A stretch of DNA of 64,000 nt from Acholeplasma granularum ATCC 19168 (GTDB taxonomy: Bacteria > Bacillota_I > Bacilli_A > Acholeplasmatales > Acholeplasmataceae), in assembly GCF_000526235.1 (NCBI RefSeq), contig NZ_JAFR01000006.1:124001-188000 (forward strand), in the 5' to 3' direction. Below are positions 402 through 63,607 of the stretch, one piece after another. The notes under the pieces were generated by a model. The model saw only the letters and a program-made list of their open reading frames with translations, was not told the origin of the DNA and searched no databases. Position 1 is the first letter of the stretch. Each line of letters starts with the position of its first letter. The position numbers and the translations under genes are program-made.

Positions 402-503
402 GCATCCAAACAATTGGGTGCTACTTATCCCCTATTAGTGTACTTAGTACACAAATCCCCTTTAATGACCCCTTGGCCTTTAGTCAAGGGGTCGCTCTTT
501 TTA
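402..503 (+). ncRNA. Candidate structured small RNA, C-rich (RsaE/RoxS-like layout)
   Basis: About 100 nt lie between a near-consensus promoter and an intrinsic terminator, with no coding potential. Hairpin 1 pairs 402-409 with 414-421 around an ACAA loop and starts at the predicted transcript 5' end. Hairpin 2 pairs GTGTAC 438-443 with 447-452. Hairpin 3 is the terminator. Between the hairpins are two unpaired TCCCC segments (428-432 and 456-460). TTATCCCCTAT at 425-435 is perfectly complementary to 2111-2121, the Shine-Dalgarno region of the ABC gene starting at 2127. TCCCCTT at 456-462 matches AAGGGGA 564-570 before the gene starting at 575. C-rich unpaired motifs that bind Shine-Dalgarno sequences are the hallmark of Firmicute sRNAs such as RsaE/RoxS. 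Homology to those RNAs is not shown here; the functional reading is inference. Confidence 0.5.
467..503 (+). terminator. Intrinsic terminator of the sRNA candidate
   Basis: Perfect 9-bp stem GACCCCTTG (467-475) / CAAGGGGTC (485-493), 9-nt loop, then a T-rich tail after GC. Confidence 0.8.
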
Positions 504-2126: not shown

Positions 2127-4961
2127 ATGTTAGAATTAAAAAATATATATAAAAAATACGCCACGAAAAAAGGTGTGGAAGTCCATGCTTTAAAAGATGT
2201 AAGCATAGTTTTTGGTCAAACTGGTCTTGTTTTTGTTACAGGAAAATCAGGAAGCGGAAAATCAACCTTACTGAATTTAATTGGTGGTCTTGATATATAT
2301 GATTCAGGCGATATAATCATTAATAATAAATCAAGTAACGACTTTAAACAAAGAGATTTCGATTCATATAGAAACACGATGGTAGGGTTTATTTTTCAAG
2401 AATACAATATACTAGATGAATTTAATGTAGCTCAAAATATTGGTCTAGCACTTGCACTACAAGGTCAAAAAGTTGATGATGAGAGTGTTAACAAATTATT
2501 AAAAGACTTAGATATAGAAGGCTTAGGTCAAAGAAATCCTAATGAACTATCCGGAGGTCAAAAACAAAGAGTTGCTATTGCAAGAGCATTAGTGAAAAAT
2601 CCTAAAATAATTTTAGCAGATGAACCAACTGGAGCACTAGATAGTACAACAGGAACACAACTAATAGAAACATTAAAAAAATTATCTAAAGATCGATTAG
2701 TTATCGTTATCTCACATGACTTAGAATTTGCAAGAAAATATGCTGATAGAATGATTCATTTTATAGATGGTAAAATCGACTACGATATTACCTATACAGG
2801 AAAAACAGTAGAAGAAAATGAACCAATTAAGATTACAAATGAAGGTATCTTAATAAAACCCAAATATCAACTAACGCCCAATGATTTAGAGATTATTAAC
2901 AACTACTTGAAAGATAAAGACAATCTTACAAGTATTAAGTTAAATAAATCAAGTAAATTCCATGATGGTTTTGAATCGACAGATGAATCTTTAATTAATA
3001 AAAGTACTGAAGAATTTGAACTGATTAAATCAAAACTTCCATTAAAAGCTTCTTTTTCAATGGCACTTAATGCCTTATCACATAAAAAGCTAAGATTGAT
3101 ATTTTCTATTATTTTATCTTCAATTGCACTCATTATGTTTGGTGTTGTTGATACCTTTTCAAATTACGATGCTAGAAATAAGTCATACCAATCAGTTATT
3201 GATAATGGTCACGAAACAATTGTATTAGGATATGCAAAAAAATCAGGTGGAGACTGGGTATATTATAATCGTGAGATAATGAATAATAATCAAAAATTAT
3301 TATTAGAATCTAAATATGAAAATCAAACATTTTTACCTATTTATGAAGACATTCGATTGTTTTATAGTTTTTTTATAGATGCAAAACACGATGATATGAC
3401 ATATTATGATTATGATGGTTTAAGACAATATATTGAAGCGGATAAAGAGTTTCTTGATAATACTAATTATGAACTTATAGGTGAATTACCCAGCAATTTA
3501 GAAGAAGTAGTTATCCCGATGTATCTATTTGAACAGTTTAAGACATATGGATATATTGATGAATCAGATAATAAATTTGAAATTGATACACCAGAAGATA
3601 TAATAGGAAAAACAATTTCATCTAGTTATTTTGAATTTACAATTTCCGGTGTCATGGATTATAAATATGACTTATCTAAATATGAAACATTAAAAAATCA
3701 TCCAAGAAACGAAAGTATATCAGGAAATTTATACTGGGAGTTTAGGGAATTTATGGATAAATCACCTGCAGGACTATTTATTTTGGGTAAAGGCATAACA
3801 CAAAAAGTAAATGAATTTCAAAGCAAAAATACATCATCAGTACTCATCCACACGAGTTTAACAAATAACGTATTTTTTAGCTACATAAATAAAATAAGTG
3901 AACTTAATTTAAGTGATATCGTCACATTTAAAGATTTATCAGTAAATGATAAAACACCTTTAGACATTGTAGTTGATCAAAATACTATGGAATACATTGC
4001 AAATCAAATAATGGGTCTTGACATTAAGCATGACATTGGACTAAATTATGTATTAAGTAATTACTATGATGAGGCAACAGCACTTTTAGATATATATTAT
4101 CCGCAATACGCAAATCTTGAATCAATCCCGGTTGAATTCAAACAAGATATAATCTATCTTTCTTTAGGCTCACAAGTTTTAACTCAAGATGATCAAAAGT
4201 TAATTTCTGCCCTATCAATTAAGTATTATTTAGATAATTTCGAACCAATTACATATACAATGAATATTGATATGGTTAATAATGGAAATGATGTTATTTA
4301 TGAAGAATTTAGAGTTATCGGCTATTCTAGTGATGCTAGCAGGTCAACATTTTATGTAAGTGATACCAAATTTGATGAAATAGTAGTTAAGCCAGATGCA
4401 AAATATTTTAGTCTAATAACACCTACAAAAACTTTAACAAAGAAAAACTTTTATCAAATGATTGAAGAAAACATGGATAAGTCACAAGACTACCGTTTTG
4501 AGGTTATGGATGCAGATGTTAACTATTTAGTTTTTTTAAGTGAAAATATATATAGTATGCAAACATTTTTCTTTTACACTGCACTAATAATGGCTTCATT
4601 TGCAGGGCTTTTAATGTTTAGCTTTATGAGTTCTAGTGTAGCCTATAAAAAGCAAGAAATAGGCATATTACGCGCCATTGGTGCAAGTAGTAAAGATGTC
4701 TTAGGTGTCTTTTCTAAAGAAACATTAATGATTTCTTTAATTAATTTAATGATTTCTATTATTGGTACAATAATTGTTTCTGATTTACTAAATAAAACGA
4801 TGATTCAGTCCCTTAATTTAAAAACTACATTATTTGATTTTGGTATAAAACAAATTATATTACTAATGATAATTTCGTTAAGTATTGGATTTATATCAAG
4901 TGCACTACCAGTACTTAAAACAGCAAATAAAAAACCGATCGATGCAATTAAAAATAAATAA
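2127..4961 (+). CDS. Fused ABC ATPase/FtsX-type permease (MacB-like), large ectodomain
   Basis: 944 residues. Residues 1-225 are an ABC ATPase (Walker A GKSGSGKST, signature LSGGQKQR, Walker B ILADEPTGALD, H-loop ISHD), of the LolD/MacB group. A first membrane segment lies at about 321-343, followed by some 465 extracytoplasmic residues and three C-terminal segments (about 813-835, 867-893, 909-931), the FtsX permease pattern. The order ATPase-TM1-ectodomain-TM2-4 is that of MacB-type mechanotransmission transporters, but the ectodomain looks about twice as large as in MacB. Such proteins act as dimers that move or release substrates outside the membrane, and the substrate here is unknown. 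The start at 2127 is chosen over the out-of-frame ATG at 2123. The ribosome-binding site (2111-2121) is exactly complementary to the RNA candidate at 425-435. Confidence 0.8.
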   Translation: MLELKNIYKKYATKKGVEVHALKDVSIVFGQTGLVFVTGKSGSGKSTLLNLIGGLDIYDSGDIIINNKSSNDFKQRDFDSYRNTMVGFIFQEYNILDEFNVAQNIGLALALQGQKVDDESVNKLLKDLDIEGLGQRNPNELSGGQKQRVAIARALVKNPKIILADEPTGALDSTTGTQLIETLKKLSKDRLVIVISHDLEFARKYADRMIHFIDGKIDYDITYTGKTVEENEPIKITNEGILIKPKYQLTPNDLEIINNYLKDKDNLTSIKLNKSSKFHDGFESTDESLINKSTEEFELIKSKLPLKASFSMALNALSHKKLRLIFSIILSSIALIMFGVVDTFSNYDARNKSYQSVIDNGHETIVLGYAKKSGGDWVYYNREIMNNNQKLLLESKYENQTFLPIYEDIRLFYSFFIDAKHDDMTYYDYDGLRQYIEADKEFLDNTNYELIGELPSNLEEVVIPMYLFEQFKTYGYIDESDNKFEIDTPEDIIGKTISSSYFEFTISGVMDYKYDLSKYETLKNHPRNESISGNLYWEFREFMDKSPAGLFILGKGITQKVNEFQSKNTSSVLIHTSLTNNVFFSYINKISELNLSDIVTFKDLSVNDKTPLDIVVDQNTMEYIANQIMGLDIKHDIGLNYVLSNYYDEATALLDIYYPQYANLESIPVEFKQDIIYLSLGSQVLTQDDQKLISALSIKYYLDNFEPITYTMNIDMVNNGNDVIYEEFRVIGYSSDASRSTFYVSDTKFDEIVVKPDAKYFSLITPTKTLTKKNFYQMIEENMDKSQDYRFEVMDADVNYLVFLSENIYSMQTFFFYTALIMASFAGLLMFSFMSSSVAYKKQEIGILRAIGASSKDVLGVFSKETLMISLINLMISIIGTIIVSDLLNKTMIQSLNLKTTLFDFGIKQIILLMIISLSIGFISSALPVLKTANKKPIDAIKNK

Positions 4962-16617: not shown

Positions 16618-16623
16618 ATGATA

Positions 16624-16866
16624 GAAGCAATGAAAAGGACATGATTTTAAGTTGACCCGTATTAAAAGCGATGTAAGAATAGGTGAAAGCTTACAAAATA
16701 AACTTAAAAATTACCACCTTGGAGCTAGCTTAAACCAATAAGCTCGTTAATCTAGCGTTAATAGATAAACTTTTAAGTGCATACATAATTAATGTATGAA
16801 TTAAGGTGGTACCGCGGAATTTTATTTCGTCCTTACATGTTTTTTTGTAGGGACTTTTATTTTTAT
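16624..16866 (+). promoter_or_regulatory. T-box leader of thrS (threonyl-tRNA sensing)
   Basis: The T-box core AAGGTGGTACCGCGG is present at 16803-16817, preceded by a Stem III hairpin (CATACAT 16780-16786 / ATGTATG 16792-16798). It is followed by a terminator: GTCCTTACA 16829-16837 pairs with 16846-16854, then a T-rich tail. The CCTT of the terminator arm can instead pair with AAGG of the T-box to form the antiterminator. Uncharged tRNA-Thr should stabilise the antiterminator and turn thrS on. Stem I lies in about 16650-16750. ACC threonine codons occur at 16713-16715 and 16716-16718 in its 3' part, but I cannot fix which is the specifier. Confidence 0.92.
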
Positions 16867-63241: not shown

Positions 63242-63465
63242 TTATATTTACCTCGTTTCTTTTCATAAATATTATACTATATTATAATTTTTGATTATAA
63301 TAATATTATTATGAAAGGGTATACATTTCTTAGTTTGGATTATAAAAGATATAAAGAAACAAAATAAGTCTTAAATAATCGATAAATTATGTAAAATATG
63401 GATTAATTATCATATCTTTTGAATTTATTTTATGTAAGTGCTAGAATATGGTTGCACAATTAAAT
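63242..63465. other. AT-rich spacer, gpmI / FMN riboswitch
   Basis: Contains minus-strand TATAAT-like elements for gpmI near 63270-63300, and the plus-strand riboswitch promoter TTGAAT (63419-63424), 17-bp spacer, TAGAAT (63442-63447) with an upstream TGC. An 18-codon ATG frame at 63311 has no ribosome-binding site and is not annotated. Nothing else seen. Confidence 0.5.
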
Positions 63466-63580
63466 CATCTTCGGGGCGAGGTGTAATTCCTCACCGGCAG
63501 TTAAAGTCTGCGAGCAAATTCTACATTTGCAGGATCCTGTGTAATTCAGGTACCGACAGTATAGTCTGGATGAGAGAAGA
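63466..63580 (+). promoter_or_regulatory. FMN riboswitch (RFN element)
   Basis: Canonical conserved blocks in order: CTTCGGGGCGAGGTGTAATTCC-type start split at 63468 onward, CCTCACCGGCAG, AGTCTGCGAGC, AGGATCCTG TGTAATTCAGGTACCGACAGT and AGTCTGGATGAGAGAAGA. FMN binding should favour the terminator at 63608-63641 and switch the riboflavin transporter gene off. Confidence 0.96.
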
Positions 63581-63607
63581 ATAAGTAATCTTTTTTTAAC
63601 TTTTTTT

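Follow-up and report, generated by a model that had tools for sequence, protein, structure and literature searches.

Base-pairing small RNAs (sRNAs) of mollicutes and their relatives are, to our knowledge, little known. In EutX/Rli55 and SreA, a metabolite aptamer is joined to an RNA with effects outside its own gene; such RNAs regulate an mRNA or titrate a protein. The RsaE/RoxS family is characterised by ResD/Rex-dependent induction and by repression of metabolic mRNAs. The RsaE/RoxS sRNAs are about 100 nt long and have their own promoter, several UCCCC-type C-rich regions, a strong terminator, and a presumed anti-Shine-Dalgarno action (PMC4409812). In RoxS, the first C-rich region lies inside a 5' stem-loop and CCCCUUUGUU is duplicated (PMC4409812, PMC8216469). 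The B. subtilis RNA RosA pairs with RoxS and destabilises it (PMC8216469).

In the present work, we describe an sRNA element at positions 402-503 of a 64,000-nt stretch of the Acholeplasma granularum ATCC 19168 genome (contig NZ_JAFR01000006.1, positions 124,001 to 188,000; hereinafter, the window). This element is very probably a real regulatory RNA gene, present in many bacteria without a cell wall and in related lineages. The relevant features of the window are as follows:

18-323: nanE (Pfam NanE)
367-395, + strand: promoter, with -35 box TTTACA at 367-372, a 17-nt spacer, and -10 box TATAAT at 390-395
402: predicted transcription start (G), 6 nt after the -10 box
402-503, + strand: local sRNA copy, between nanE and the ABC ATPase gene 575-1279
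402-421, + strand: 5' hairpin GCATCCAA-acaa-TTGGGTGC of the minimum free energy (MFE) fold, beginning at the predicted transcription start
422-436, + strand: C-rich core 1, TACTTATCCCCTATT, single-stranded and near invariant
438-452, + strand: hairpin 2 of the MFE fold, GTGTAC-tta-GTACAC
453-466, + strand: C-rich core 2, AAATCCCCTTTAAT, single-stranded
467-503, + strand: intrinsic terminator, with the stem at 467-493 and a U-rich tail to about 503
564-570, + strand: AAGGGGA before the ABC gene 575-1279
2111-2121, + strand: candidate pairing site ATAGGGGATAA in the Shine-Dalgarno region of the MacB-like ABC/FtsX gene 2127-4961
7190: tpx (Pfam Redoxin)
7772: ftsY (Pfam SRP54)

The first-pass annotation of the window had proposed an sRNA with a promoter, a hairpin at the transcription start, a second hairpin, a terminator, and no open reading frame, and all these features were recovered in place. 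The promoter matches the consensus at 11 of 12 positions and heads the list of 42 promoter-like sites in the segment 1-5000, its score being tied with two others; such sites are not over-represented in this segment (42 versus 37.7 expected). With its 6-nt spacer and G start, it fits the form of the mapped A. laidlawii promoters (-10 box TAWAAT, 6-nt spacer, G or A initiator; PMC5138195). Each sRNA homologue likewise has its own promoter just upstream. The terminator (466-494) is one of the two found by a terminator scan. The MFE of the sRNA is -38.4 kcal/mol (z = -5.3), and none of 200 shuffled sequences is equally stable. The two TCCCC motifs (428-432 and 456-460), earlier described as unpaired, are conserved and indeed left single-stranded by the fold, and they are open across the family as well: the mean unpaired probability of CCCC in 93 members is 0.985 in core 1 and 0.934 in core 2. 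The possibility of an encoded peptide was rejected: MHPNNWVLLIPY forms an open frame in the window, yet neither this frame nor its start and stop are kept among the homologues. There is no conserved open reading frame, since the phase between the transcription start and the core varies among homologues and many readings stop early or lack a start codon. In several members of the genus (L010, L016, L017), a ACATACTTAAGTAAA-like partial palindrome is located just 5' of the -35 box, that is, upstream of position 367, and is a possible regulator site. Elsewhere in the window, a T-box leader (16621-16837, + strand) and an FMN riboswitch (63463-63585, + strand) both score above the Rfam cut-offs.

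The predicted structure is supported by covariation in an alignment of 30 sequences (A1). In this alignment, 15 of 20 stem pairs changed on both sides, and 96.5% of stem cells are paired, compared with 83.0% in shuffled alignments and 37-50% in slid-partner controls. Double-sided cells number 88 versus 21.7 in the shuffles, and none of 500 shuffles reaches the observed values. The 5' hairpin is paired in 99.4% of cells, and double-sided changes occur within the family at 4 of its 6 pairs and at all 10 counted pairs of the terminator stem. Over 93 sequences, the first hairpin is wholly rewritten while the architecture stays: it reads GCATCC/GGATGC or GCGCC/GGCGT, and at the same place in Izemoplasma other pairing sequences are found, namely GCGAC/GTCGC, GCAATC/GATTGC, and GTAGC/GCTAC. 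Hairpin 2 is swapped for different pairing sequences in relatives (GTGAATAAT/ATTATTCAC, TGTGTG/CACACA). The invariant columns of core 1 in A1 read TTATCCCCTA; in core 2, CCC is invariant in A1 and ATCCCCTT is retained in other orders. Thus, in the alignment of Acholeplasma relatives, which the first-pass annotation had named as a check, the stems covary and the C-rich strands are kept.

Blastn detected homologues of the sRNA in each of the eight genus genomes and in 35 of the 88 family genomes. In G004, the sRNA maps to C1:352881 (+ strand). A covariance model identified the sRNA in 48 of 160 genomes of the order and in further families of the class, and a second covariance model identified it in 59 of 390 genomes of the class. 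The second model was built mainly from Izemoplasma-type sequences and includes none of the 30 sequences of A1; it works mainly by sequence, as it has just 5 pairs owing to alignment shifts between the subfamilies, and it recovers the window copy weakly (23.0 bits, E 0.007). In total, about 93 distinct sRNA sequences were collected across Acholeplasmatales, Izemoplasma, and other orders of the class. The sRNA is present in the culturable Acholeplasma laidlawii (record L197), and a scan of named genomes revealed it in Acholeplasma oculi, A. equifetale, Haploplasma modicum, the strains MO-XQ, zrk7, and zrk2, and many Candidatus Izemoplasma genomes. A minority of scan matches in unrelated phyla were rejected as chance matches that lack the hairpins. 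The covariation of the stems, together with recovery in dozens of genomes, places the element far beyond chance.

The gene order in the family is topA-sRNA-tpx-ftsY, and the Izemoplasma-type genomes have topA-sRNA-ftsY-ylxM in more than 30 loci (topA, ftsY, and ylxM outside the window were identified from translations). The ancestral sRNA locus is topA-sRNA-(tpx)-ftsY. In the window, nanE takes the place of topA, and tpx and ftsY lie at a greater distance downstream, on the strand of the sRNA. At this locus, the sRNA has been lost in five relatives with different remnants: (i) in G024 (genus g9), the promoter, the GCATTC start, and the terminator persist, (ii) G036 (genus g10) retains core 2 together with the terminator, and (iii) only the terminator is left in G026, G039, and G040 (all of genus g10). 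As the core is lost in these genomes and promoter or terminator remnants are still in place, the sRNA is dispensable there. The relic loci upstream of tpx (L438, L437, L435, L436, L439) represent natural knock-outs. G024 carries an Izemoplasma-type sRNA copy of the mobile kind elsewhere (L480).

Several Izemoplasma-type genomes have two to four sRNA loci, and near-identical copies are found on the plasmid CP017949 of MO-XQ and on IMG/VR contigs. In L450 (9504-12960), the sRNA copy directly adjoins two tandem large serine recombinases, as identified by Pfam and PHROGs, and open reading frames of similar size occupy the same place in L448 (7882-11430) and L451 (2730-6205). In these contexts, the sRNA may be a cargo or may sit at an attachment site. 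L141 was grouped with viral or plasmid contigs that have the sRNA beside serine recombinases. Both cores are retained in the copies outside the ancestral locus, which argues for action in trans. The Izemoplasma-type paralogues L135, L190, L176, and L430 adjoin genes resembling those for glutathione peroxidase or small heat-shock proteins. Together with the location of the main copy near the thiol peroxidase gene tpx in Acholeplasmataceae, these neighbours make a link to stress possible.

The best-supported partner of the sRNA was predicted in other genera, and it is a purine-aptamer transcript adjacent to ppa rather than a neighbouring transporter gene. A search of 32 genomes for the 15-nt complement of core 1 (at most 2 mismatches) turned up the exact sequence in G027 and a close variant in G028, and further core 1 complements in G031, G037, and G041 belong to the same kind of aptamer RNA. 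In zrk7 (G087), a member of another genus, an arbitrary 200-kb sample contains one strong complement, compared with no match for the reversed query; it is located between folD and ppa, behind an RF00167 aptamer of 64.5 bits. The RF00167 cut-off of 37 bits is exceeded in all six partner RNAs (53.1-64.5 bits; 57.7 in G027, 55.2 in G028, and 53.1-60.8 over the five apart from zrk7). Here, ppa was identified from its translation (MNIWHDI...) and folD by sequence. The partner RNAs at the ppa side are as follows:

L365, 1343-1580: partner RNA
L366, 1346-1583: partner RNA
L466, - strand: partner RNA
L467, - strand: partner RNA
L468: partner RNA
L418, 510-700, - strand: partner RNA

All of them contain the aptamer, the G-rich segment, and an intrinsic terminator; in the five apart from zrk7, the layout is a promoter, the aptamer, about 130 nt, the terminator, and then ppa. 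The J3/1 segment of the aptamers reads GACTACG in five cases and ATCTACG in G037, with C at the specificity position. Purine aptamers with C at this position are of the guanine type, and the partner aptamers are predicted to be of that type. The predicted duplex with the sRNA comprises 17-21 contiguous pairs, including G-U, in six relatives of two genera, and besides core 1 it takes in the 3' arm of the 5' hairpin. The pairing energies range from -23 to -33 kcal/mol, with z-scores against shuffled partner RNAs from -4.1 (zrk7, the weakest) to -8.4. The sRNA of zrk7 reads GAUGUUAC, whereas GAUGCUAC or GAUGCUAU predominates in the other genus; correspondingly, the zrk7 partner has GUAACAU, and the other partners have GUAGCAUC or GUAGUAUC. 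Thus, in zrk7 a C-to-U change in the sRNA is met by a G-to-A change in the partner, the sole clear compensatory change for this pairing. The zrk7 partner pairs with its own sRNA at -23.1 kcal/mol versus -16.5 to -18.8 kcal/mol with the sRNAs of the others.

The partner is noncoding and bears a G-rich segment complementary to the C-rich region of the sRNA, as sponge RNAs of the RosA/RsaI kind do. Thus, the ppa-side transcript is a candidate riboswitch-controlled sponge. Such a sponge would not be general, as searches in the genus of the window did not detect the partner RNA: ppa is not preceded by a riboswitch in G002 and G005, the two genus-mates examined, and 464 kb of the window's own genome contain no second extended complement.

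The roles in this pair might also be reversed, the aptamer RNA being the target, so that the sRNA would pair with a riboswitch leader and modulate read-through into ppa. The pairing segment does lie between the aptamer and the terminator, directly upstream of ppa. However, a -10-like TGATAAAAT located 3' of the terminator is conserved in the five genus-g10 sequences (zrk7 has GCTAAAAT), suggesting that ppa may have its own promoter, and ppa and the sRNA are both present in relatives that lack the riboswitch. We therefore regard a role as a leader target as possible, though rather doubtful, and retain the candidate sponge as the preferred reading of this transcript.

The relation of the sRNA to known families was assessed with Rfam 15, in which no family reaches the gathering level for the window sRNA or for representatives from other orders; no description of this sRNA was found among the papers searched. 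The best sub-threshold matches of the window are LhrC (20.2 bits, cut-off 110) and RsaE (18.7 bits, cut-off 79). Thus, the covariance search against RF01820 and all other Rfam families, proposed in the first-pass annotation, stayed below every cut-off, and the annotation's view of an undescribed sRNA with RsaE/RoxS-type C-rich strands is borne out by the two open UCCCC-type regions. A highly diverged but true member of RsaE/RoxS (RF01820), inherited from a common ancestor with Bacillus and Staphylococcus, would account for the recurrence of RsaE among the best sub-threshold matches, as it is also the best such match of one Izemoplasma copy (21.9 bits) and its match in G444 (25.1 bits) coincides in place with the match of the family model; in addition, hairpin 2 with CAUCCCCUU can be aligned with the RsaE stem and UCCCAUCCCCUUU. 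Common descent is nevertheless unlikely: the RsaE cut-off is exceeded in none of 390 genomes of the class (maximum 29.6 bits), with the B. subtilis control positive, the C-rich region of RoxS lies in the 5' stem-loop whereas core 1 is flanked by a hairpin on either side, RoxS has a CCCCUUUGUU duplication that is missing here, and short C-rich motifs converge easily. As it fails both the score cut-off and the topology, the new sRNA was not placed in RsaE/RoxS. The weak recurring similarity near hairpin 2 and CAUCCCCUU may reflect convergence or very deep homology.

Action of the C-rich cores as anti-Shine-Dalgarno sequences is plausible given the anatomy of the sRNA and its parallel with RsaE/RoxS (PMC4409812). 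Targets in the own genome were sought among 401 start regions within a 464-kb sample. Across the eight genomes of the genus, AGGGGATAA start sites fall on non-orthologous genes, none of which recurs. In five genomes, start regions are not significantly enriched for pairing with core 1 relative to cores with shuffled flanks, and start-region pairing with core 2 is slightly in excess in part of the genomes, which any anti-Shine-Dalgarno sequence would be expected to show. A single extended antisense target shared by every genome was rejected, since the 15-nt complement (at most 2 mismatches) occurs at the control level in most of them. A NERD-domain gene of the own genome carries, in its 5' UTR (G000:C13:68133-68147; L002:1530-1544), a segment that can form 13 contiguous pairs with core 1 (-21.3 kcal/mol); this candidate was set aside, as it was not found in relatives and similar single-mismatch matches are sporadic in other genomes. 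Given that no conserved mRNA target was found in these tests, and that the fifteen near-invariant nucleotides of core 1 exceed what anti-Shine-Dalgarno action needs, the cores could instead bind a protein, for example, one specific for C-rich RNA, the sRNA being a protein decoy with incidental complementarity to GGGG. A decoy is improbable, however, as it would leave unexpected a complement of 17-21 nt that recurs in six genomes, reaches into the hairpin arm, and tracks the change in zrk7.

The first-pass annotation had read the sRNA as controlling the two ABC exporters downstream through built-in complementarity. The underlying complementarities are exact: TTATCCCCTAT (425-435) is the reverse complement of 2111-2121 over 11 nt, and TCCCCTT (456-462) is complementary to AAGGGGA (564-570) over 7 nt. 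The product of the MacB-like gene has ABC_tran and FtsX domains. The annotation had also singled out these two genes by their GGGGA-type sites; this holds in the window, where GGGG occurs in the Shine-Dalgarno region of only 2 of 58 genes (those at 575 and 2126/2127), but not in the genome sample, where the ribosome-binding region contains AGGGG in 28 of 401 genes. Among the start regions of the sample, the MacB start ranks 4th of 401 with core 1 (5th of 401 with the better core; -16.6 kcal/mol), whereas the start at 575 ranks 43rd of 401 by pairing energy, and overall enrichment for core 1 is lacking. Among the other 575 orthologues beside the sRNA, 3 of 4 have a GGAGG rather than a GGGGA ribosome-binding site, and the ABC pair (575/1260) is located downstream of the sRNA in 5 of 8 genomes of the genus. 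As the conserved neighbours are topA and tpx/ftsY, the ABC transporters appear to be recent, accidental neighbours that cannot account for core invariance over several orders. Thus, a dedicated role in controlling the adjacent exporters is very unlikely and this part of the annotation is not upheld; the MacB start remains a plausible lineage-specific candidate target, and the 575 site is probably not a conserved one. The reading of the element as merely a terminator with transcriptional noise between genes, for which one may cite the abundance of promoter-like sites in AT-rich genomes and the persistence of the terminator after topA in relatives without the core, can be dismissed in view of the covarying stems, the unpaired cores invariant across several orders, and the extra copies elsewhere.

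The family itself, its structure, conservation, locus, and complementarities are read directly from the compared genomes. Taken together, they probably represent an old family of trans-acting, C-rich sRNAs of about 100 nt that pair with G-rich RNA and, in some relatives, with a candidate aptamer-RNA sponge. The proposed mechanism includes the following steps: (i) the strong promoter would start an RNA of about 100 nt at the base of the 5' hairpin, which probably protects the 5' end, (ii) the hairpins would keep the two near-invariant C-rich strands open, (iii) by analogy, the cores would pair with GGGG-type ribosome-binding sites of mRNA targets and block translation, and (iv) in some relatives, core 1 and the 3' arm of the 5' hairpin are predicted to pair over 17-21 nt with the ppa-side aptamer transcript, which may act as a sponge and, depending on purine supply, titrate or destabilise the sRNA, as RosA does with RoxS. 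More tentatively, a guanine-aptamer sponge might couple purine supply to the sRNA regulon, with the plasmid and viral sRNA copies acting on the same regulon. If a guanine aptamer is indeed fused with an sRNA-binding segment, this would link metabolite sensing to sRNA control; no such arrangement was found in a literature search. Since the family can be traced at one locus over several orders, occurs in the culturable A. laidlawii, has natural losses, and offers a concrete partner, sRNA action in reduced bacteria becomes directly testable.

Comparison with the known systems reveals several characteristic features of the new sRNA. It resembles RsaE/RoxS in the length of about 100 nt, the promoter, the UCCCC-type regions, and the terminator, and differs from it in that (i) the two C-rich strands lie between three hairpins, core 1 being outside any stem-loop, (ii) the cores read CCCCUAUU and CCCCUUUA instead of duplicating CCCCUUUGUU, and (iii) the gene is found at topA-ftsY in Acholeplasmatales and Izemoplasma, with an aptamer-bearing RNA as the partner. 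The Listeria LhrC sRNAs (RF00616) are likewise multicopy with exposed C-rich motifs, whereas their structure and motifs are unlike those of the new sRNA, in line with the score of 20.2 bits against the cut-off of 110. The partner RNA is similar to RosA of B. subtilis and RsaI of S. aureus, the G-rich noncoding sponges of RoxS/RsaE, whose GGGG stretches complement the C-rich regions of those sRNAs, the likeness being one of complementarity alone; unlike them, it starts with an RF00167 aptamer and may respond to a metabolite rather than to CcpA. From EutX/Rli55 and SreA it differs in that its predicted partner is another sRNA. Thus, we propose for the new sRNA a mode of action like that of RoxS/RosA, yet in a separate family.
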